DNA of 8,459 bases from Treponema sp. (GTDB taxonomy: Bacteria; Spirochaetota; Spirochaetia; Treponematales; Breznakiellaceae). Shown here one piece after another: positions 1 to 8,459 of the stretch. The stretch is taken from NCBI GenBank assembly GCA_031269405.1, contig JAISZE010000145.1, positions 1 through 8,459 of the forward strand. Reading direction: 5' to 3'. Under the pieces are notes generated by a model that saw nothing but the letters and a program-made list of their open reading frames with translations, was not told where the DNA came from and made no database searches. The translations under genes were made by a program, and so were the position numbers. How positions within the stretch are numbered: position 1 is the first letter of the stretch; each line of letters opens with the position of its first letter.

Positions 1-44
1 CGATATACAAAAACACAACCAAAAGAACTACGAGACTTTTTCAT
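1..44 (-). CDS. Start of an unidentified protein (partial, runs off left edge)
   Basis: Reading leftward from an ATG at 44, an open frame of 14 codons continues to the window edge (MKKSRSSFGCVFVY). It is preceded by a strong GGAGG at 57-61, 12 nt upstream, and by a near-consensus promoter at 106-134. The lysine-rich start followed by a hydrophobic stretch with a cysteine at residue 10 could be the beginning of a signal or lipoprotein leader, but 14 residues are too few to decide. No function can be assigned. The call as a gene rests on the aligned promoter, ribosome binding site and ATG. Confidence 0.5.
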   Translation of the reverse strand, partial: MKKSRSSFGCVFVY

Positions 45-56
45 TCAGAATGTTAT

Positions 57-61
57 CCTCC
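57..61 (-). promoter_or_regulatory. Ribosome binding site for the left-edge gene
   Basis: The minus strand reads AAGGAAGGAGGATAAC, containing a full GGAGG core 12 nt before the ATG at 44. The spacing is on the long side. A CTG lies closer, but its frame hits TAG within a few codons, so the ATG at 44 is the sensible start. Confidence 0.55.
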
Positions 62-105
62 TTCCTTTTGACGAATACTGATATGAAATCTATCAAGTTA
101 AAAAA

Positions 106-134
106 ATTTTATCATACAAATTTTCTTCTGTCAA
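106..134 (-). promoter_or_regulatory. Near-consensus sigma70 promoter with extended -10, leftward
   Basis: On the minus strand there is a perfect TTGACA (134-129), a 17-nt spacer (128-112) and TAAAAT (111-106, five of six matches). A TGA immediately before the -10 gives the extended TGn motif. The DNA upstream is rich in T and A tracts, like an UP element. The predicted start is near 99, leaving a leader of about 55 nt before the ATG at 44. It serves the gene leaving the window on the left. No convincing terminator separates it from the GH57 gene, so some read-through is possible. Confidence 0.75.
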
Positions 135-209
135 GTCCAAAAATCATTTTCTTTACAAAAAATATGAAAAAAAATTATACACCTATACAAATGAATAGTA
201 AAAACCGCC

Positions 210-2063
210 TCAGGAACTGACTTTGAGTGAAAAATCCCCGTCCCAAGATTTGCCGGGCTCAAGGGAGACCTGCAGGGACGGGAGAATAGTCGTGAACTGG
301 TATTCTGCCCCGCCCCCTTCGCCTGTCCGGACCGGCAGAATCCGTGCGTCGAAACGGCGGTTCGAGTCAAGGGAAAGGACCGCCTCGTTCTTCAGGTCCC
401 GGAATTCCAGGCCGGAAAGGTCCTTTACCGCCCCTGTGCCTGAAGCCAGGGCCTCTTTCACGCCGCCCTGGAGGGTAAGAATGCGTACAAAGGCCTCCCC
501 TTCTCCAGGGAAGGACAAATCGATTGAAGGTACGAGAAAAAACGATTCCGGCTTATCTCCTGAATTTTTCAGGCCGTACCGGACTGTAATGGTGTTTTTC
601 TTTATCCACCAGGTTTTTTCTATCTCTATAGAGCCGAAAGGCAGCCCCTCTTTGGGAGGAAGGCGGAAACGTACTTTCTTGTGAATCCGGTCTGTTTCCT
701 GGACCTCAAAAATCTCCTTTCCGCAAAACCTCAAAGCCCCGGAGTTTCCTGGAACACCAGCAGCCTCAGGGGCCAGGTAATCGGAGAACCCCTGGCGCCG
801 CAAAGGCGTCGAATTCCGGGGCACAAAAAGATCCAGGTAATTCCAGGCCCTGGGAAGGTAATCAAGCTCAAAAATCCCTGCCCCTTCGGCTTTGACATAG
901 CAGTTGAGCTTTTCTTCCTGAAAAAGAAACTCCCCTTCGCCGTCAAGATCAAAATCAAAAACCGAAAGCGAAGGGGAAAACCGGCCTTTTTCCCTGGTGA
1001 TTTTTTCAGCTTCCAAAAGGGCCCGGTACGCCGTCTTGCGTACCAGGGAACGGCTGAGGCAAGGGGGGTTCCCGGTACTAAAAAGGCCGCAGTCCTGGGC
1101 TTTCCAGAGCTCCTCCAGAGCCGTGCGCTTCCTGGATTTGTCGCCCCTAAGCTGGTTGATAAGGGTACGGGTATACATCATCTTGGCGTAGATGCCGTTA
1201 GCCTCCGGGCAGTCTACCAGGAACTGGCGCGGCCGGACAGGGCCCCCTTTTTCCCCGCTTCCAGGGATTCCGCAGAAATAATGCTTTTCAAGCCCCCTGA
1301 GGTTTTTGAATATCCTGCCCGGAAGGGTAAACTCAAACCTAGAATCAGCGTTGGACAGTTCCTCAAAAAAACTCTGGAATTCCAGTTCAACGTTTTCTTT
1401 AGCCCCCTGGGCAGGGAAAACCGTAACCAAATGCTCCCGCCCGCCGCCCAGGAGTTCCTTAAGCCTTTCCAGACCAGCGAAAGGCCGGTTTAGGGAAAAT
1501 TCCCTGCCCAGAGCGGAGGCTACAGGGAAAACCGTAAGGAGCTTCCCCTGATCCTCAGTGATACAAGGGGCGAAGGTGTTCCCGGCGACTGGGTTTGCCC
1601 CTGAGGCGGCAAAATAGGCGTCTTCCAAGAACGTATAACTCATGCCGCAGGCGTTGAGAGGGCTCACCAGGTTCTGCTCCCAGGCCAGCGCGGGAATCCA
1701 GCAACCCTGGGGCCTCTTGCCGAACTGCCGGCGCAGGTAGGTTGTGAGCATTTCAATTTGCCCGAGCTTGTCGGCCAGGGGCAGGAGGGGCATCATGGGC
1801 TCGTAAAAGCCGCCGCCCAGGAGTTCCGCCTGTTTCCGGGACAAAAGATCCTCTAAAAGCATAAAAAGCTCCGGGTGCCGCCGTTCTATCCAGTGCAGAA
1901 GCACCCCGGAATAATGAAAGGCCATACATATCCTGGGAAATTTATACAATGTAGAGATAAGAGGTTTTACTTCCCTGCTATAAAGGGTTTCAAATTCATC
2001 TTCCCCTGATCCGGAAGGAAGATGGTTATAAGAACCCAAAATAATACTTATTTTAGAATTCAT
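210..2063 (-). CDS. GH57 4-alpha-glucanotransferase-like protein, predicted catalytically inactive
   Basis: This 617-residue cytoplasmic protein aligns along its length with GH57 4-alpha-glucanotransferases such as the Thermococcus litoralis enzyme (about 659 aa). Recognisable in order are YNHLPSG (residues 12-18, for HNHQP), FHYSGVLLHWIE (49-60), GGGFYEP (83-89), QIEML (102-106), GCWIPALAWEQNL (120-132), TVFP twice (177-180 and 214-217), and the beta-rich C-terminal domain starting at SVFDFDLDG (367-375) with GIFEL (396-400). The family nucleophile Glu in TERVW is A125 here. The acid/base Asp in VFHDDGEK is replaced by P217-A218-Q219. The first His of the HxHQP-type motif is Tyr. Real GH57 activity is therefore unlikely, and a glucan-binding or regulatory role is an inference. 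ATG 2063 is preferred because AGGCGG lies just upstream. An in-frame ATG at 2084 lacks a binding site and falls at the predicted transcription start. The gene is probably monocistronic. Confidence 0.85.
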   Translation of the reverse strand: MNSKISIILGSYNHLPSGSGEDEFETLYSREVKPLISTLYKFPRICMAFHYSGVLLHWIERRHPELFMLLEDLLSRKQAELLGGGFYEPMMPLLPLADKLGQIEMLTTYLRRQFGKRPQGCWIPALAWEQNLVSPLNACGMSYTFLEDAYFAASGANPVAGNTFAPCITEDQGKLLTVFPVASALGREFSLNRPFAGLERLKELLGGGREHLVTVFPAQGAKENVELEFQSFFEELSNADSRFEFTLPGRIFKNLRGLEKHYFCGIPGSGEKGGPVRPRQFLVDCPEANGIYAKMMYTRTLINQLRGDKSRKRTALEELWKAQDCGLFSTGNPPCLSRSLVRKTAYRALLEAEKITREKGRFSPSLSVFDFDLDGEGEFLFQEEKLNCYVKAEGAGIFELDYLPRAWNYLDLFVPRNSTPLRRQGFSDYLAPEAAGVPGNSGALRFCGKEIFEVQETDRIHKKVRFRLPPKEGLPFGSIEIEKTWWIKKNTITVRYGLKNSGDKPESFFLVPSIDLSFPGEGEAFVRILTLQGGVKEALASGTGAVKDLSGLEFRDLKNEAVLSLDSNRRFDARILPVRTGEGGGAEYQFTTILPSLQVSLEPGKSWDGDFSLKVSS

Positions 2064-2087
2064 CACCCGCCTAATTTCTATCATATC

Positions 2088-2116
2088 ATTTTAATCTATA
2101 TTTTTCTTTCTGAAAA
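2088..2116 (-). promoter_or_regulatory. Probable promoter of the GH57-like gene
   Basis: The minus strand shows TTTTCA (2116-2111, four of six -35 matches), a 17-nt spacer and TAAAAT (2093-2088, five of six). The predicted start is near 2081, giving a leader of about 18 nt that carries the AGGCGG binding site before ATG 2063. This is the main reason to separate the GH57 gene from the upstream rnf-like unit and to reject ATG 2084. Confidence 0.5.
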
Positions 2117-2120
2117 GCGT

Positions 2121-2149
2121 TAAAAAGCCAAAGTCCGCCTAAAGCGGGA
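2121..2149 (-). terminator. Weak hairpin with T-run after rnfA-like gene
   Basis: The minus strand reads TCCCGC-TTTAG-GCGGA, a stem of about five pairs with one bulged C that covers the rnfA stop codon. A T5 run follows about 7 nt later (2126-2122). The stem is short and set back from the T-run, so termination would be partial at best. Confidence 0.3.
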
Positions 2150-2744
2150 AATTTTTACCTAGGTTTTCAAGAATCCTGAAGCAGATCCAGGCGGCGGCGG
2201 CGAAGATCATTGAAAGCAGGCCCGTAGAGATAAGGACCAGCGGGCCGCCCCGGAGATAGCGGGGAACCCATTCCAGACCGGATCTCCTGCGTATCTCCCC
2301 AAGGATCAGCAGCGCCAGGAAGCAGCCAAGGGCAAAGAAAAAAGCAAAGACAGCGGCGTCTAATACGGTCAAAGCCAGGTGGATGGTCATAATAAGGGAA
2401 ACCGGAACCAGGCCGTCGTATGCGGTAAGAGCGGAAAAGGCCCGGGCCCCTTCCTGTCTGGGGAAGAGCTTCTTCCAGAGAGATTCAAAGCCCAGGCAAA
2501 CCAAGGCTGAAAGGGGGAACAAAAGAAAATACTCCAGAGCCCCTCCTGAAAAGGGCTTGAGAATGTAATCATAAGCCGCCCAGAGGACGAATACGGAAAC
2601 AAAAAGGTTCGCTGTCTGGAAAACCGGAAAGGGATTTCCCCTGCTGTCCCTGGCAAAGAGCAAAACCCCTCGCGCTCCAAGGGCAAACTGGAGTATCAGA
2701 TTCAGGGAAAGACCGGCGAAAACCGCCAAAGCCGCAAAGGTCAT
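2139..2744 (-). CDS. rnfA: RnfA-like membrane subunit, lacking the Fe-S cysteines
   Basis: The protein has 201 residues and about six membrane segments, the size and shape of RnfA/NqrE. The C-terminal part is clearest: WVPRYLRGGPLVLISTGLLS (159-178) matches the family pattern of a VPxxxRG box followed by an ALITAGLMSL-type helix. In RnfA, two Cys (in LGxCP and in TTNC) bind the intramembrane 2Fe-2S cluster with the partner RnfE. Here the first region reads QFALGARG (19-26) with no Cys, and the second reads VPVSLIMTIH (113-122), again with no Cys. C83, C141 and C188 lie elsewhere. The ATG overlaps the rnfE stop by 4 nt (ATGA) and follows GGAGG with 7-nt spacing. It is the last gene of the operon, and rnfB does not follow. 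The alternative name NqrE-like is less likely given the order C-D-G-E-A. Confidence 0.75.
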   Translation of the reverse strand: MTFAALAVFAGLSLNLILQFALGARGVLLFARDSRGNPFPVFQTANLFVSVFVLWAAYDYILKPFSGGALEYFLLFPLSALVCLGFESLWKKLFPRQEGARAFSALTAYDGLVPVSLIMTIHLALTVLDAAVFAFFFALGCFLALLILGEIRRRSGLEWVPRYLRGGPLVLISTGLLSMIFAAAAWICFRILENLGKNFPL

Positions 2745-3379
2745 AGATCATCCTCCGTTCCGGTATACTGGCTTTTAAAATAGCGGAAAACCGCCAGGAG
2801 ATAACCCAGAAGCAAAAGCCCGCCTGAGGAAACCGAAAAGATACGGACAGGAAAAAACCCGCCAGGGTCTTCTGAACTGAAAAGCTCGAAAATCCCCCCT
2901 GGGCCGCCGGGAAGGGAGAGCGAACCCAGCCCCAAGGGTTCGCGTATCAGGGAAAGGGCAATGATAAGGAGGCCCAGGCAGAGGGCTTCCAGGAAAACCC
3001 TGGGCAGCGACTCGCCGGGATCCAGATTCTCAAGCTGCTCCAGGGCGCCTGAACCTATGTAGCAAGGCGGGACCAGGATCAGGAAAAACCAGGTTGTCTG
3101 GACCAAAAGGGGGTTGAGAAAACCTCCGAGAAGGAGATATACGCTGCAAATAAGGCTTGACAGGAAAAGGCGGATAACCGGCTTCCCTTTGACAGGCATA
3201 AAATCCCTGGCTGCGAAGTACGCCAAAGCAGTAAGGCTGAAAACCCAGATGAGGCCCAATGTGCAGAAAAGGGCGAAGGCCAACCGCTGGGAAGCCATAA
3301 TCAAAAGCGCCCCGCCGGCCATAGTTGACAGCGGCGCGTGAGGCCCCCAGAAGACGTGGGATTGAAGGCGCTGGTTCAC
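2741..3379 (-). CDS. rnfE: RnfE-like membrane subunit
   Basis: This 212-residue, six-helix protein belongs to the RnfA/RnfE/NqrD/NqrE family. SLIREPLGLGSL (143-154) corresponds to the family's AIREILGxG signature. VPPCYIG (103-109) corresponds to VNCIILG, so one Fe-S ligand, C106, is kept. The first ligand region, normally LGLCP, reads WGPHAPL (11-17), with His14 where Cys is expected. The start is GTG at 3379, overlapping the rnfG stop by 4 nt and preceded by GGGGG with a 6-nt gap. The family's role is to form, with RnfA, the membrane pair that carries electrons across the inner membrane. With only one of the four expected Cys in the pair, that role is doubtful here. Position between rnfG and rnfA supports the E assignment. 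Confidence 0.75.
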   Translation of the reverse strand: MNQRLQSHVFWGPHAPLSTMAGGALLIMASQRLAFALFCTLGLIWVFSLTALAYFAARDFMPVKGKPVIRLFLSSLICSVYLLLGGFLNPLLVQTTWFFLILVPPCYIGSGALEQLENLDPGESLPRVFLEALCLGLLIIALSLIREPLGLGSLSLPGGPGGIFELFSSEDPGGFFPVRIFSVSSGGLLLLGYLLAVFRYFKSQYTGTEDDL

Positions 3380-3846
3380 GGTTTACCCCCTTCACCGCCG
3401 CTTCCTTCGATGCGGCGTATGTAGATCCCCAGGGCCCCAGAGGAGACACGGTCCAGGAGTTTTGCCGAATGGCTGTTCAGGGGAACAATCCGTTCCACCA
3501 GCCCTTCAGGGCTTACCACAGCGAGACAGGGCAGGAAAGAGCCGTTGGCGATAATAGTAAAGACCAGCCCCTTCTGCCCTTCTGCGTCCTCCAGGGTAAA
3601 CCATGTTCCCATACGGGTAGTTTCCGGCGGAAGGTCCCGGAAAGCAAGGGGTTTTCCCAGACTTAACGGCTGCCCTTCCCAGGCGATCCGGGCCAGGACC
3701 CTGTTCACAGACCGCATCAGAAAATTCGCCCGTATCTGCTGGGTCAATGACCAGCAGAGGACGCCAGTAAGGACGAGCCCGGCTATCCAGCCCAAGAACA
3801 GGGCGCTGTCTTTGACTCTTGGCATAAACGGACTGCCGCCCTTCAT
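3376..3846 (-). CDS. rnfG: Shortened RnfG-like protein without the flavinylation motif
   Basis: This 156-residue protein has one N-terminal membrane helix (about 15-33) and an extracytoplasmic domain, as in RnfG, but it is shorter than the usual 180-210 residues. RnfG normally carries FMN bound covalently to the Thr of an SGAT motif in an FMN_bind domain. The corresponding stretch seems to be DRVSSGALGIY (132-142), with Leu139 in place of that Thr. The HxETPG-type motif is also absent; the region reads LNSHSAKLL (123-131). The assignment therefore leans on position between rnfD and rnfE, topology and weak similarity. ATG 3846 overlaps the rnfD stop (ATGA) and has AGGAGG about 6 nt upstream, which favours it over Met8 (MPRVKDS). 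It could equally be described as a membrane-anchored protein that replaced RnfG. Confidence 0.6.
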   Translation of the reverse strand: MKGGSPFMPRVKDSALFLGWIAGLVLTGVLCWSLTQQIRANFLMRSVNRVLARIAWEGQPLSLGKPLAFRDLPPETTRMGTWFTLEDAEGQKGLVFTIIANGSFLPCLAVVSPEGLVERIVPLNSHSAKLLDRVSSGALGIYIRRIEGSGGEGGKP

Positions 3847-4961
3847 GACGCCCTCCTGGCAGGGTCCCGTTTCGCCCGTGGTTCCCGTTTTTCATAAAAA
3901 AAGCGCGTTTCCAGAACCCTCACTGCAGGGAGCAGGGCGTTTACCAGAATTACCGAAAACAGGGCCCCGTAAGGTTCGGCGCCGTAATAACGGAAAAGCC
4001 AGGCTAGAACGGCCCCTGTAGCAGAAGCGGCCAGTATGCCCCAGTTGGATTTGGCTCCTGTAGCGGGATCCGCAGCCAGAATAAAGGCTGCCGCCAATAC
4101 GCCTCCGGAACAGAAGGAAAAGAGCACATCCCCGTTCCACCATCCCCCCCCGTAAGGGAGGGCCCCTGCGAGGCGGACCAGAAAACCGTAGGCCCCAAGC
4201 CAGATCGCGGGTATCCAGGAACGGTTCGCCTGGGACGCTGTGATGATAATGGTTCCCGCAAGCAGGGCCAGGATACCGCGGTCGGCTATGATCCCCTGAT
4301 GGACAGCGGCGAAAAGATCGATATATCCCCCAGGGAGTTCAGCGCCTGTGACGGCGAAAACCGTATCGTTCAAAAAAGACCTGATCAGCGAGTCTGTACT
4401 GCTGGTTTGGGAAAAAAGGCCCGCTGAATCTATCTTGAGGATCCCCATAGGGGAACTCTGGGGATTGGCCCCTCTGGAGAAGCTTTCAGCGACGAGGGAC
4501 AAAGGCGACCCTTCCAAAGCCCGGTTAAAAACCCCGGGCCATGCGGTACGTATAAAAAGCCAGCCTCCAGCGGCGGGGTTGAGCCAGTTAGAACCAAGGC
4601 CCCCAAAACTGTGTTTTATCACAGCCATGGCGAAGGCAGCGCCTAAAGCCGCGTAAACCGGGGGTATTCTGTCAGGCAGGAGCAGCGTGAGGATAAGGGC
4701 AGAGGCTACCGCGCTGCCGTCCCTGAGCTGAGCCGCCCTTCCTGAAGGGTACAAGATGAGCAGTTCCACCAGAACCGCCGCAGCTACAGCGGCCAGAGCG
4801 ATAAAAAAAGATGAAAAGGAATCAGTAAGGCTGGACTGGATAACCACCATAAAAGCGCAGAGGCTTACCAGCCACATGCGTCCCACTGTCGGGCGGGCCA
4901 GGTTCACCTGGGGCTTCTGGGACTGCAATTTTTCAAACAGGGCCTTGGAATTTTCAGCCAT
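3843..4961 (-). CDS. rnfD: RnfD-like membrane subunit
   Basis: The protein has 372 residues and multiple membrane helices, and belongs to the NqrB/RnfD family. Family marks are DGSAVASALILTLLLP (81-96), KHSFGGLGSNWLNPA (116-130) and AADPATGAK (296-304). In RnfD an ApbE-type transferase attaches FMN to the Thr of an S/T-G/A-A-T motif. The equivalent stretch is probably SQTSSTDSL (184-192), where T189 could be the acceptor although Ala is replaced by Ser and the leading Asp is missing. ATG 4961 is chosen because it overlaps the rnfC stop (TGATG) and follows AAGGGGG with a 5-nt gap. A 30-codon upstream extension would lie wholly inside rnfC. The coding strand has a G8 run at codons 271-273. Confidence 0.85.
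   Translation of the reverse strand: MAENSKALFEKLQSQKPQVNLARPTVGRMWLVSLCAFMVVIQSSLTDSFSSFFIALAAVAAAVLVELLILYPSGRAAQLRDGSAVASALILTLLLPDRIPPVYAALGAAFAMAVIKHSFGGLGSNWLNPAAGGWLFIRTAWPGVFNRALEGSPLSLVAESFSRGANPQSSPMGILKIDSAGLFSQTSSTDSLIRSFLNDTVFAVTGAELPGGYIDLFAAVHQGIIADRGILALLAGTIIITASQANRSWIPAIWLGAYGFLVRLAGALPYGGGWWNGDVLFSFCSGGVLAAAFILAADPATGAKSNWGILAASATGAVLAWLFRYYGAEPYGALFSVILVNALLPAVRVLETRFFYEKREPRAKRDPARRAS
4144..4151 (-). repeat. G8 homopolymer inside rnfD
   Basis: The coding strand has eight consecutive G across codons G271-G272-G273 of the RnfD-like protein. A change of one base would frameshift the last quarter of the protein. Poly-G tracts are known phase-variation sites in Treponema pallidum, usually at or above this length. 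Whether this tract varies cannot be seen from one sequence. Confidence 0.8.
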
Positions 4962-6271
4962 CAGTTCCCCCTTAGGGCAGAAGCGCAGATCGCCGAACTG
5001 AGGGGCAGACGTGAAGGGCAGACGACCTCGCAGCAGCCGCAGCCGTGGCACTCAGCCGCCCTGGATGCCAGGACTTCCCTGGGCATGCCGTTTACCCTGG
5101 TCCGCTTATACAGTTCTTCCGGGTCCAGCCCTACAGGACAGACGTTCCGGCATTCGCCACAGCTTATACAGCAGTCCGGGACATTCCCTGCCTTCTGGGC
5201 TTCCAGGAGGGCAAAGACCGCATAGGTGGACTTTACCACAGGTTCGTCCAGATCCATCACCCCCCTGCCCAGAAGGGGGCTGCCTGACGCGATACGCCTG
5301 GGCGTTCCGGTAAAGCCGCCGCACTGTTCAAAGACCTCCCTGATGCGGGTCCCTATACGCACTTTCATAACCTGCGGGTGCTTTACCGCCGAGCCGCCTA
5401 TGGCAACATAGCGATCCAGGACGGGCTTTTTCAGCTTTACCGCGTCATGAATCGCCGCCAGAGTAGCGGGCCCCAATACAACCAGGGACCCCAAATCAAA
5501 GCCCTCATGCCTGCAGAAATTCCGCAGCACCAGTTCCAGTTCCCGCTGGTTCCGCTGGGGATACCGCGAGCCGACCAGGGCCAGGTAAGAAGGAGGCTCC
5601 CAGTTCCCCGCCTCTGCCAGGAAGCGGCTGCCCAGATCCCTCTCCCTCTGGGACACAGCGAAGATGATCCTTGCGGCCCTGACAGTACGTGCAGTGATCC
5701 TGCTTCCCTCGATTACCGCTTTCAGCTGTTCCTGACAAAGAACATAATCCGCAGCCAGCCAGGGATCGTCAAAAACGCAGCGCACCACCAGGGTTACAGG
5801 CTCAGGGGCGTTTCTGAGTGAAGCGATACTGTCGGAAACAGGCTTTCCCAGACCGTCCATCTCCACTACCCCGTATTCCGCGATAAACCGCTGGAGATCG
5901 TACGGGAGCATACTCTCCCAGGGGAAAACCTCTTCGCGTTTACCCAGTTTTTCAAAGTTCCCTTCCATGCGGATCACCAGGGCGTCATTGGTCTTGCCGT
6001 CCGCCATTTTCCAGGAAACCATGCGAATCACCCTGCCGGGAACCGTTGCATGGACATTGGCTGACCCCATCCCCTGCCCCCTGCCGATGAGCATGCCTTC
6101 CTTGACCATGTCGCCGATGGAAACAATGGGGTACGCCCTGCCTCCCGGATGCTGGACCAGGGGTATCACCGAAAGGGCGGGCAAAAAAGCGGTAACCGAA
6201 GAATCCCTGGACGGAACTGCAGGGTCCGCGAAAGCTATCCCCCCGCGGGGAAAGGAGTATACCCGCGTCAT
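4961..6271 (-). CDS. rnfC: RnfC-like protein with two 4Fe-4S motifs but degenerate flavin/NADH site
   Basis: This 436-residue peripheral subunit has an N-terminal FPRGGI (7-12, for FKGGI) and a biotinyl-like segment with HATVPGRV (74-81). The SLBB-type region IGTRIREVFEQCGGF (306-320) is followed by ASGSPLLGR (328-336). Two full ferredoxin motifs are present: C368-C371-C374-C378P and C408-C411-C414-C418P. In canonical RnfC the central domain binds FMN and NADH. Its marks are changed: GLGGAGFPT reads EMDGLGKPVS (137-146), the NxxECEP box reads RCVFDDP (164-170), and YPQGGE reads YPQRNQ (237-242). ATG 6271 is preceded by AAGG with a 7-nt gap and lies 10 nt after the upstream gene. The fold assignment is firm. 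NADH oxidation is doubtful, so the electron donor is unknown. Confidence 0.88.
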   Translation of the reverse strand: MTRVYSFPRGGIAFADPAVPSRDSSVTAFLPALSVIPLVQHPGGRAYPIVSIGDMVKEGMLIGRGQGMGSANVHATVPGRVIRMVSWKMADGKTNDALVIRMEGNFEKLGKREEVFPWESMLPYDLQRFIAEYGVVEMDGLGKPVSDSIASLRNAPEPVTLVVRCVFDDPWLAADYVLCQEQLKAVIEGSRITARTVRAARIIFAVSQRERDLGSRFLAEAGNWEPPSYLALVGSRYPQRNQRELELVLRNFCRHEGFDLGSLVVLGPATLAAIHDAVKLKKPVLDRYVAIGGSAVKHPQVMKVRIGTRIREVFEQCGGFTGTPRRIASGSPLLGRGVMDLDEPVVKSTYAVFALLEAQKAGNVPDCCISCGECRNVCPVGLDPEELYKRTRVNGMPREVLASRAAECHGCGCCEVVCPSRLPLSSAICASALRGN

Positions 6272-6281
6272 CCCTTAGCCT

Positions 6282-7691
6282 TCATGCGGCAATCCGCCGT
6301 TCCCTGAGTAGCGCAGCTTTTTTCTTTTTTCCATTCCTGCCTCCAAGTCTGAAACGATTGGGAAAACAGGAAAGAACAAGTAAAATCAATAAAATCCAAT
6401 CCTTTTCTTGAACCGGCGGCGTATCGCCGGTACTGGTAGTATACTGTACCAGAAACTCCATAAGTTTTTCCAGCGGGAAAGGCGGAATAACGCTTTCATC
6501 AGGAACACCCTGTTTGCCCTCCCTGCTTATAAGACCGTCTTCTCCTAAAGTATAACGGAAATATCCTTCATTTCCAGCTTTTTCTCCTTTTTTTCCCAAA
6601 GGAGTATAGGAAAAGGAAGCCTGAAAAGCCAGGTGTTGTTCATAATCCTCAGGAGAAAGAAGATACCCGGAATAAGCGCTTCCTCCCCTGTCCTCAGGGT
6701 AAGGGAAAGAAGGGGAAAAAAACCTTGCAGCCAGAATCAGGAACGCCGCTGCTGCGAAAACTGCGGCGCAAGGCTGGAACCCCGGAGGAACCGCGGGACC
6801 CGGAAATATGCGCAGAGGCATAAAAAGGATATGATCGGCGTTTTTCCGTTCCATCCTTAAGACCCCGGGAAAAAGTATGCCTGGCGCCAAGAAACACACA
6901 AATCCCGCCGCTGCAGGGACTCGGGGTATACCTGCCAGGATACACAGGAGGAAAAAGAGAAACGTGAAAAAAACAGCCAGAATCCAGTTAGCCCTGAAGG
7001 TTTTAAATTTATCCCCTATAGTTCCGTAGGCACGAAAAGGGAAAAGCTCTCCCAGAGGTTCCCGGAGCAGTTCTCCAAGGCCGGTTAAGATCCCTGCCAG
7101 GATGATGCCTCCGGTTCCGGCCCAGGCAAAAGCCAGGAGGAGCGGAATCTGGAGGGCAAAACGCGCCTTTTCACGGGAAAAGAACAACGCAGCAAGGGAA
7201 GAAACAGCGGCGGCAAGAACATACATGCCAAGGGGATCTGGATTTCCCGGAATGTCCAGGGAAAACGGAATATCTCCCAAAGCTGCTGCTGCCTTCTTCT
7301 CAATTTTTCCGGGATTCCCTGTATCCTTCAGGAGGATGAAAAAATGCCGTTTCCCGTTATGGACAAAAACCGAACGAAGCTTTTCCCCGTAACCGTCATC
7401 CCTGGGATCGAAGGGCTCCAGTTCCTCACGGTACGTTTCCAGATCCAGGCGTTTAAGGGCGCCAAAGCCATCAATGAAAAATTCCTGGGTGGATTCGGAA
7501 AGGCACTCCCGTATGCCGGCTTTTTCAAGAAGCTCCCTGATACGGCGATCCTCCAGGGATTCGTCTACAGAAAGGATCCCCCAGACATTATCCTCCGGTT
7601 CCAGCGGAAGGGCACGGGAAAACAAGAACACCCCCCCTGCTCCCAGAAGCAGCGAGAGCATACAAAGCGGGAAATAATTACGGATCCTCAC
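6282..7691 (-). CDS. Unrecognised polytopic membrane protein of the rnf-like operon
   Basis: I do not recognise this 469-residue protein. An N-terminal helix (about 8-28) is followed by a charged domain of about 120 residues (30-150), then some five hydrophobic segments (about 155-171, 180-206, 235-253, 258-278, 305-322). A second soluble domain (about 325-430) is rich in Tyr, Gly and Pro, followed by a last helix (431-443) and a very basic tail with GKKKK and RERR (454-466). The basic tail suggests a cytoplasmic C-terminus with both soluble domains outside the membrane. No cofactor motif or catalytic signature is apparent. The start is GTG 7691, with AGGG about 5 nt upstream overlapping the preceding stop; ATG at residue 11 is an alternative. 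It lies 7 nt after the DUF212 gene and 10 nt before rnfC, so it is very likely co-transcribed and may be an accessory subunit. Confidence 0.75.
   Translation of the reverse strand: MRIRNYFPLCMLSLLLGAGGVFLFSRALPLEPEDNVWGILSVDESLEDRRIRELLEKAGIRECLSESTQEFFIDGFGALKRLDLETYREELEPFDPRDDGYGEKLRSVFVHNGKRHFFILLKDTGNPGKIEKKAAAALGDIPFSLDIPGNPDPLGMYVLAAAVSSLAALFFSREKARFALQIPLLLAFAWAGTGGIILAGILTGLGELLREPLGELFPFRAYGTIGDKFKTFRANWILAVFFTFLFFLLCILAGIPRVPAAAGFVCFLAPGILFPGVLRMERKNADHILFMPLRIFPGPAVPPGFQPCAAVFAAAAFLILAARFFSPSFPYPEDRGGSAYSGYLLSPEDYEQHLAFQASFSYTPLGKKGEKAGNEGYFRYTLGEDGLISREGKQGVPDESVIPPFPLEKLMEFLVQYTTSTGDTPPVQEKDWILLILLVLSCFPNRFRLGGRNGKKKKAALLRERRIAA
7631..7637 (-). repeat. G7 run near the start of the unknown membrane protein
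   Basis: Codons 19-21 (GGG GGG GTG) give seven consecutive G in the first membrane helix of the 469-residue protein. Slippage here would end translation early. Length seven is borderline for a contingency tract. Confidence 0.6.
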
Positions 7692-7698
7692 AGAAACC

Positions 7699-8238
7699 CT
7701 ATAACCAGGCGTAAGCGGCTGCGATAAAAATACCCAAAAGGGCCCCTATCACTACTTCCAGCGGGGCGTGCCCCTGGATTTCCTTGACCTGCCGGTACTC
7801 AAAACCCAGACGGTCCGACGCGTTCCTGCCCAAAAGGTTTAAAGCCCGGGCCTGGAGCCCTGCGGAACGGCGCACCCCCATGGCATCGCGCATCACGACC
7901 ATGGCGACAAAGAAACAAACCACAAAAAGATTGGAACCTATCCCTTCCTGAAAGGCGACTTCGGCAGTCATGGAACATATGACAGCCGCATGGCTCGACG
8001 GCATACCCCCGGTGCGCCAGATGATGGTTTCTATCAATTCCCGGGGAGATTTTTTGCGACCGCTAAGAATCACCACCAGGGCCTTGACGATTTGGGCCAA
8101 TACCCAGCTCGTGAAAGCCGACAGCATGACGGGATTTTCAATAAAAGGCCTTAACGAAAAGGACCGCAGGGATGAAAGAAAGAACATTGCTAAATTTTCC
8201 ATTACAGCATAGGCTTTGTCAAGCCTTGACCTTGACAA
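7699..8238 (-). CDS. DUF212 / divergent PAP2-family membrane protein
   Basis: The protein has 179 residues and four or so membrane helices. It carries the DUF212 (YuiD-type, acid phosphatase/vanadium haloperoxidase-related) marks TGGMPSSHAA (76-85), MRDAMGVRRSAGLQA (116-130) and GHAPLEVVIGALLG (156-169). SSH and GHxxxE resemble the PAP2 phosphatase signature, but the substrate of the family is not settled; lipid or polyprenyl phosphates are an inference. The longest frame starts at TTG 8238 with AAGGGG 4 nt upstream, in the style of the rnfD and rnfE binding sites. ATG 8202 (MENLAM, 167 residues) is closer to usual family length but has no visible binding site, so the start is unsettled. It is the first gene of the seven-gene unit and diverges from the pseudouridine synthase gene. 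Confidence 0.85.
   Translation of the reverse strand: MSRSRLDKAYAVMENLAMFFLSSLRSFSLRPFIENPVMLSAFTSWVLAQIVKALVVILSGRKKSPRELIETIIWRTGGMPSSHAAVICSMTAEVAFQEGIGSNLFVVCFFVAMVVMRDAMGVRRSAGLQARALNLLGRNASDRLGFEYRQVKEIQGHAPLEVVIGALLGIFIAAAYAWL
8216..8238. repeat. Nested inverted repeat, possible operator between divergent genes
   Basis: TTGTCAAG (8216-8223) and CTTGACAA (8231-8238) are perfect 8-bp inverted arms separated by 7 nt. Inside, GTCAAG-C-CTTGAC (8218-8230) forms a second perfect palindrome. The half-site CTTGAC therefore occurs three times, twice in tandem and once inverted. Each strand also shows a TTGACA (plus 8232-8237, minus 8222-8217) facing away from the centre, like paired -35 boxes. 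Matching -10 boxes are poor. It overlaps the first codons of the DUF212 frame if TTG 8238 is the start. Confidence 0.5.
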
Positions 8239-8269
8239 TACACCCCTTGGGAATCAGGATGAACCAGGT

Positions 8270-8459
8270 ATGCCTCGATTAATGACCGCAGATGATGACG
8301 ATGGCCGAAGGCTGGACCGGGTGCTCCGTAAGGCCCTGCCGGCTCTGCCCCTTTCGGCGCTGCACCGGCTTTTCAGGAAAGGCAAAATAACGGTAAACGG
8401 CGTCCCTGCGGAAGCGGCGTTCAGGGTCAGGGCAGGGCAGATCATCGGCATTCCCGAAC
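8270..8459 (+). CDS. RluA-family pseudouridine synthase, N-terminal S4 domain (partial)
   Basis: The open frame runs from ATG 8270 to the window edge (63 codons, no stop). GRRLDRVLRKALP (12-24) followed by LHRLFRKGKITVNG (31-44) and RVRAGQIIGIPE (52-63) matches the RNA-binding S4 domain at the start of RluC/RluD-type enzymes, which convert uridine to pseudouridine in 23S rRNA. The catalytic domain with its conserved Asp lies beyond the window, so RluC and RluD cannot be told apart. The binding site is weak: AGGA at 8256-8259 lies 10 nt upstream of ATG 8270, and an in-frame ATG at 8282 is an alternative start. It is divergent from the DUF212/rnf-like unit and shares the intergenic inverted repeat. 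Confidence 0.8.
   Translation, partial: MPRLMTADDDDGRRLDRVLRKALPALPLSALHRLFRKGKITVNGVPAEAAFRVRAGQIIGIPE

Follow-up and report, generated by a model that had tools for sequence, protein, structure and literature searches.

A second, GH57-linked Rnf-type operon in Treponema and related spirochaetes that keeps its scaffold and has lost most known redox sites

What is left for an Rnf-type operon to do when most of the residues that carry electrons through an Rnf pump are gone, and is such an operon simply decaying? The question is raised by a stretch of 8,459 nucleotides from a Treponema sp. assembly (GCA_031269405.1, contig JAISZE010000145.1, positions 1 to 8,459; hereafter the window), in which a first-pass annotation made from the sequence alone had recognised five consecutive genes as RnfC, RnfD, RnfG, RnfE and RnfA in order and had proposed that the scaffold was kept and most redox sites were lost. 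Both proposals were borne out. The five genes encode distant homologues of those subunits (RnfG being assigned by position and fold), and in an alignment with canonical proteins the flavin/NADH site of RnfC (NADH, reduced nicotinamide adenine dinucleotide), the threonine of RnfG that carries flavin mononucleotide (FMN-Thr) and the [2Fe-2S] cysteines of RnfA and RnfE were gone, while the cysteines of the two [4Fe-4S] clusters of RnfC were retained, as the annotation had also stated. Its list of losses held for the sites that it named and did not extend to the absent RnfB, the altered FMN site of RnfD, the conserved gene neighbourhood, or the presence in other families of the same operon with RnfB and cofactor sites in place. 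Its further suggestions, that electrons may enter from another donor by way of the RnfC clusters or that the membrane part may serve transport or ion coupling, are conjectural.

Cofactor sites of the five Rnf-like subunits

The five genes of the window are as follows:
4961..6271, minus strand: RnfC-like protein of 436 aa (TIGR01945, 224.3 bits; matches to RnfC structures in the PDB)
3843..4961, minus strand: RnfD-like protein (PF03116, 176.6 bits; probable start ATG at 4961)
3376..3846, minus strand: RnfG-like protein of 156 aa, without the C-terminal part that holds the FMN-Thr (named by position and remote fold)
2741..3379, minus strand: RnfE-like protein of 212 aa (PF02508, 23.4 bits; NqrD 7xk3, E 0.0086)
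2139..2744, minus strand: RnfA-like protein of 201 aa (TIGR01943, 39.8 bits; matches to RnfA structures in the PDB, best E 0.0024)

The probable start of rnfD overlaps the stop of rnfC by 1 nt. RnfC and RnfD are clear homologues and RnfE and RnfA weak ones; the RnfG-like protein found no family match in profile scans, and comparison of its predicted fold placed RnfG structures at or close to the top of the ranking, at weak scores. Homologues of C, D, G, E and A are present in operon order, and none of the window proteins reached the NCBI curated cut-off for an Rnf subunit (224.3 vs 245.95 bits for RnfC, 107.9 vs 207.05 for RnfD, 17.8 vs 213.4 for RnfE and 39.8 vs 229.3 for RnfA). RnfB is absent from the window, where only 54 bases separate rnfA from the next gene, which encodes a GH57-type protein. 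The scan of eight window proteins gave no first subunit of the NqrA type (TIGR01936 nqrA, 13.1 vs 321 bits) and no NqrF.

The window belongs to the family Breznakiellaceae, a name that appears in published work on termite-gut spirochaetes (PMC13067680) and whose named cultured members include Leadbettera azotonutricia. A profile of the RnfE-like protein had matches in 170 of 195 family genomes, one of them (G146) weak, and 79 loci were collected by this gene alone. For each locus the single best-scoring open reading frame (ORF) per subunit was kept, matches below 40 bits being dropped except for RnfG, and these were aligned together with the window against nine canonical rows (E. coli Rsx plus eight spirochaete operons of canonical type). 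This gave 75 family rows for RnfC, 77 for RnfD, 80 for RnfG, 80 for RnfE and 79 for RnfA, window included, and the loci without a family row lie mostly at contig ends. The reference sites are those described in structural accounts of Rnf, namely four cysteines in RnfA and RnfE, an FMN-Thr in both RnfG and RnfD, and the FMN and two [4Fe-4S] clusters of RnfC (PMC9588780, PMC11889175). In the account of the Acetobacterium woodii complex, riboflavin is held by N123 and D249 of RnfD, alanine variants of these are inactive, and loss of the RnfA/E cysteines or of the RnfG threonine abolishes activity and growth (PMC11889175). N123 and D249 were mapped onto the family RnfD proteins through the 9eri alignment.

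The eight cysteines that bind the [4Fe-4S] clusters of RnfC are kept in all 75 family rows, the window among them, and the riboflavin Asn of RnfD in all 77, with Asp (61 rows) or Glu (16 rows) at its partner position. The RnfC flavin loop GxGGAxFP, present in 9/9 canonical rows, was found in 0/75 family rows, and in place of ECEPY stands a new FDDPW motif, conserved as F (75), D (75), D (72), P (73) and W (74 of the 75 rows) and embedded in RCVFDDPW in the window; the FMN/NADH site defined by GxGGAGFP and ECEPY is thereby missing throughout the 75 rows. No FMN-Thr was found in 80 family RnfG rows. The two [2Fe-2S] cysteine positions are kept in only 2 and 1 of 79 family rows in RnfA, with both gone in the window, and in 0 and 0 of 80 in RnfE, and neither protein has gained an invariant Cys or His. 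What RnfA does keep at 95% or more is N15, W55, P77, A130, F137, G140 and E158. At the FMN-Thr column of RnfD there is Thr in one row, Ser in 48 (including the window), a gap in 18 and another residue in 10 (n=77). The ApbE motif D..[ST]GA[ST] occurs in 0/77 family RnfD and 0/80 family RnfG rows; it is a strict pattern that matches just 4/9 canonical RnfD and 1/8 canonical RnfG rows, and the column counts are the better evidence. Neither the alignment with the nine canonical rows nor a motif search found the cofactor residues at shifted positions, and we reject that alternative.

Because the sites lost are needed in A. woodii, the known membrane electron path cannot run in a complex of the window type, barring unknown substitute ligands. 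We do not file the operon as an Rnf complex: it is homologous to one but fails for four defining features, namely RnfB, the RnfC flavin site, the RnfA/E cluster and the RnfG FMN.

The conserved block, its selection and its relatives

The order C-D-G-E-A recurs in 73 of the 79 family loci, which rules out chance resemblance. Since the loci had been gathered by the RnfE-like gene alone, their neighbours stand outside the selection. In the window the neighbours are:
7699..8238, minus strand: protein of the divergent PAP2 family DUF212, whose gene opens the conserved block (PF02681, 141 bits)
6282..7691, minus strand: U469, an orphan multi-helix membrane protein with weak RND-like resemblance, 10 nt upstream of rnfC
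210..2084, minus strand: GH57-type protein, after a 54-nt gap behind rnfA (PF03065, 94.9 bits; 1k1w, E 2e-39)
starting at 8216, plus strand: pseudouridine-synthase-like frame (tentative name)

We define a GH57-linked Rnf-type order as DUF212, (U469), RnfC-D-G-E-A, (RnfB), GH57, and the window has this order. The block was complete, DUF212 through GH57, in 54/79 loci (47 with U469 and 7 in which it is missing between DUF212 and RnfC), many others being cut by contig ends, and GH57 directly follows RnfA in 66/79. Among the 13 loci without it some contigs end soon after RnfA, and others, such as L005, L009, L076 and L077, run several kb further with no GH57. Within or next to the operon, none of the 79 family loci has an RnfB-like (RsxB-like) ORF; a lone RsxB-like match, in L079, is to a short frame on the opposite strand at a distance of about 4 kb. 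Annotation pipelines name some of these genes Rnf or Nqr. The locus L059, whose record is titled Treponema denticola, falls within the termite-gut family in the RnfC tree as well as in the RnfD tree and is probably a misnamed metagenome-assembled genome.

The first-pass annotation had also held that the operon is not decaying, and here the counts agree with it. We calculated dN/dS (the ratio of nonsynonymous to synonymous substitution rates) by Nei-Gojobori counts from one pair, the window and L001, which has the same block at 81-96% protein identity. The values are 0.088 for RnfC, 0.189 for RnfD, 0.219 for RnfG, 0.168 for RnfE and 0.226 for RnfA, that is 0.09-0.23 for the five genes in this one pair, to which conservation over the 79 loci is added; U469 gave 0.210, GH57 0.121 and DUF212 0.064, DUF212 being the most constrained of the eight block genes. 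In RnfC, 88 positions are at least 95% identical over the 75 rows, and several of these replace residues that are conserved in canonical RnfC. Because the electron-carrying parts are mostly lost yet selection persists, this stripped second complex probably has another job now.

The GH57-type protein aligns over 217 residues with 1k1w, which we take to be the 4-alpha-glucanotransferase of T. litoralis. The catalytic residues of that enzyme are the Glu of WLTERVW and the Asp of the VFHDDG stretch. In the window the former is Ala (WIPALAW) and the latter stretch reads VFPAQG, so that neither residue of a GH57 alpha-glucanotransferase is in place. Counted over 67 family rows (at least 80 bits) and 18 rows from outside the family, Glu occupies the WLTERVW column in 7/67 and 8/18, respectively. 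The GH57-type neighbour is a probable pseudoenzyme, one that would have lost catalysis and yet been kept under selection. U469 has a conserved extracytoplasmic domain (consensus SESTQWVFLDDFG and FDPRNDGYAE), and its Foldseek matches are mostly RND proteins, the best at only E 0.018.

A second, canonical rnf operon, for which the first-pass annotation had recommended a search, is present in close relatives. The sister genome G001, whose proteins are 81-96% identical to those of the window, carries a full rnfCDGEAB operon (L093), and canonical RnfC passed the cut-off in 7/9 and, in a second set of ten genomes picked mainly as large or single-contig ones, 10/10 genomes with the stripped gene, or 17/19. 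RnfB was above cut-off in 7/9 genomes and ApbE, the flavin transferase, was found in 8/9. Seven of the eight canonical-type operons have all six genes in the order C-D-G-E-A-B. The eighth, L098, is an atypical row without an RnfG match and with a gap at the FMN-Thr of RnfD; its genome, G002, has two canonical-type RnfC proteins (L091 and L098) in addition to a stripped one. G001 gave no ApbE match, though its canonical RnfG (L093) has the FMN-Thr, perhaps because the assembly is incomplete. Conversely, G007 and G008 have ApbE and no canonical RnfC or RnfB above cut-off, which may reflect draft gaps or another ApbE target.

Beyond the family, 30 outer genomes were hand-picked from a sample of the order, weak RnfE matches first and hence not at random, and 20 places were read out of them. 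The stripped RnfC profile had matches in 29/30 of these genomes, in some of them only to canonical RnfC. The block ends in GH57 in 18/20 outer loci, L171 and L172 being cut by a contig end, and RnfG and RnfA were each found in 16/20. In 14/20 loci an RnfB follows RnfA or stands between it and GH57; the match is weak (21-60 bits to E. coli RsxB), and on six outer genomes with such an RnfB the TIGR01944 cut-off was passed at this place in G242 only. All four RnfA/E cysteines are present in six of the 20 loci (L166, L167, L168, L169, L171 and L178), three in L175 and L176, and one or none in the other 12, in four of which RnfA was not found. The RnfG FMN motif is present in 3/16 outer loci with RnfG (L167, L169 and L171). 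The FMN site of RnfD, which was read from the sequences as the alignment column was misaligned there, has Thr or Ser in 12/20, with SGASPLG in L167. The RnfC flavin loop was found in 0/20 outer loci and E-[C/S]-EPY in 6/20, while the eight RnfC cysteines are present in 20/20. The riboflavin Asn is kept in 19/20, with D in 14, E in 2 and W or Q in 4 at the Asp position. In L177, L180, L181 and L182, all of the Treponema group, RnfB is about 200 aa long and has no N-terminal CGxCG, with its ferredoxin-type cysteines kept; these operons are without RnfA/E cysteines where readable. The RnfB of L171, cut by the contig end, has no CGxCG segment either, though the RnfA/E cysteines are kept there.

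In unrooted trees with several long rows, the canonical rows split off with branch support of 100/100 (RnfC) and 100/99 (RnfD), and the family of the window forms a branch of its own (100/99 and 100/100, respectively), which adjoins the Treponema group in the RnfC tree (100/99). Read from these sequences, the pattern is that of a second operon of long standing that lost its parts step by step. We infer that the RnfC flavin site was lost first, and then the arm formed by RnfB, RnfA/E and RnfG, in more than one lineage. The RnfC clusters were lost in no row examined.

The operon in a probable Treponema pallidum genome

One outer locus, L185 (G205:C1:169500-180500), comes from a genome in one contig of 1,139,633 bases, and the RnfD gene of this locus (173,898-174,914) contains position 174,174, published as a variant position of tp0151 in another strain. 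Because the RnfD gene spans this position and the contig is a single one of that size, G205 is very probably T. pallidum. In the published account tp0151 is the rnfD gene of an Rnf complex that pumps ions (PMC11371664), and models of the T. pallidum Rnf pump term it noncanonical or putative (PMC7512555, PMC11717252). L185 has 0/4 RnfA/E cysteines and no RnfC flavin site. The eight RnfC cysteines are kept, as is the riboflavin Asn, with Glu for Asp (Glu is also found in 16/77 family rows), so riboflavin in this RnfD is possible; the place of RnfG is taken by an open frame some 155 aa long. The search of the genome returned no RnfB match and, beyond the RnfC of the operon, just one short ferredoxin-domain match for RnfC.

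The 'noncanonical RNF' of T. pallidum (rnfD = tp0151; PMC7512555, PMC11371664) is very probably this same operon. As these papers present it, the system is part of a flavodoxin-oxidising ion pump, whereas the genome read here is without RnfB, the flavin site of RnfC and the four RnfA/E cysteines. Subject to the identity of the genome, the known electron path is, on our reading of these genes, absent from T. pallidum. At the level of the family, the stripped complex appears usually to stand beside a normal energy-conserving Rnf pump, and the probable syphilis agent to have only the stripped version. Energy-metabolism models of T. pallidum, as set out in these publications, rest on an Rnf-type pump (PMC7512555, PMC11717252, PMC11371664), and the sole Rnf-like genes that we found in this very probable T. 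pallidum genome lack RnfB and most known electron-carrying residues. In the open-licence literature searched, as far as its accessible text goes, we found no description of cofactor loss in a spirochaete Rnf operon.

Possible roles and comparison with known systems

We tentatively favour the view that the second, GH57-linked complex may no longer act as a ferredoxin:NAD+ oxidoreductase or as a redox pump of a known type, and that it might now be a cytoplasm-facing Fe-S/riboflavin module on a scaffold. On this view the NAD chemistry would have been lost before the RnfB - RnfA/E - RnfG arm; a soluble cytoplasmic protein would dock on the remodelled FDDPW face of RnfC, which would swap single electrons between that protein and the RnfD riboflavin on the cytoplasmic side. 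The complex would then be a membrane-anchored redox relay or a sensor of redox state, with RnfA, RnfE and RnfG as scaffold. We propose a cytoplasmic relay or sensor because the parts that are always kept (the RnfC clusters and, in the family, the RnfD riboflavin residues) face the cytoplasm. Several points weigh against this. Two clusters and one flavin form a dead-end chain unless electrons are taken up, and a dead-looking GH57 would suit a purely structural or regulatory role just as well. Some members of the Treponema group (4/20 outer loci) have W or Q in place of the riboflavin Asp, so that in this part of the group riboflavin cannot serve as the shared functional site. Finally, L171 is placed beside the canonical rows in the RnfC tree (98/95) and with the outer rows in the RnfD tree (96/90), a conflict that leaves some doubt whether the operon arose only once.

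The same points bear on a scaffold without redox function, in which the membrane part and RnfC would form a structural or transport platform, the [4Fe-4S] clusters would serve only to fold RnfC, and the pseudo-GH57 and U469 would be partners in an envelope or glycan machine. We consider this unlikely as it stands, and yet nearly as likely as the relay, since no way out of the chain is visible and the riboflavin Asp too is gone in some Treponema. It fits the conserved neighbours DUF212, U469 and GH57, the catalytic Glu of 1k1w in just 7/67 family GH57 rows, and the RND proteins that dominate the Foldseek matches of U469. That substitute ligands keep electrons crossing the membrane, with FMN on the RnfD Ser and a metal held in RnfA/E by other residues, seems improbable to us. 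Ser does stand at the RnfD FMN-Thr column in 48/77 rows and in the SGASPLG of L167, ApbE is able to flavinylate Ser according to one published account (PMC12052999), and ApbE is present in 8/9 genomes, including G007 and G008 without canonical RnfC or RnfB above cut-off; but the RnfD loop is a gap in 18/77 rows, the RnfG FMN end is kept in 0/80, RnfA and RnfE have gained no invariant Cys or His, in most genomes canonical Rnf suffices as a target for ApbE, and the assemblies of G007 and G008 are in many contigs.

We give little credence to a paralogous accessory that docks on, competes with or tunes canonical Rnf. Coexistence with canonical RnfC in 17/19 genomes would suit it, but G205 keeps the stripped operon with no RnfB match and no second RnfC, and in G242, G196, G245, G215 and G198, all many-contig assemblies, the RnfC of this neighbourhood is the sole full-length one. 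Decay into a pseudogene operon is hardly credible: most catalytic residues are indeed lost, but the frames are open, dN/dS lies at 0.06-0.23 in eight genes for the one pair, 88 RnfC positions are kept at 95% or more, FDDPW is new, and the operon has been retained in a 1.14 Mb genome. 

A bolder reading, which we consider possible and hold somewhat more loosely than the relay, is that this is a new membrane complex, in which an Rnf scaffold cut from its redox arm would have been joined to a dead GH57 and to PAP2-like and RND-like proteins in a conserved spirochaete machine, with the RnfC clusters as its sole constant redox parts; as the sole 'Rnf' of the syphilis spirochaete, it would mean that the proposed flavodoxin:NAD+ ion pump does not exist there.

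In this operon nature has preserved the framework of an ancient redox pump and removed the electron path in steps, with intermediates alive in relatives, and the operon could serve to separate the structural roles of RnfA, RnfE, RnfD and RnfG from those of their cofactors. It could mislead metabolic reconstructions of spirochaetes that do no more than count subunits.

Compared with the Rnf complexes of C. tetanomorphum (7zc6), A. vinelandii (8ahx) and A. woodii (9eri), the window shares the C-D-G-E-A order, the RnfC clusters and the RnfD riboflavin residues, and differs in being without RnfB, the RnfA/E ligands, the RnfG FMN-Thr and the RnfC FMN/NADH site, and in having Ser at the FMN-Thr of RnfD. 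Na+-NQR has a homologous membrane core (NqrB, C, D and E), and its NqrA is described as also devoid of the RnfC FMN (PMC9588780); as far as that description goes, however, NqrA is without the two [4Fe-4S] clusters, and NqrF and the membrane metal site are required, neither of which is in the window. The partial NQR/RNF-like systems reported by Meheust et al. 2021 (PMC8238504) likewise reuse partial Rnf/Nqr parts. Those systems, as presented there, are RnfD-NqrF fusions in flavinylation clusters, through which electrons are thought to flow one way, whereas here the flavinylation sites appear to be lost and the five scaffold subunits stay.

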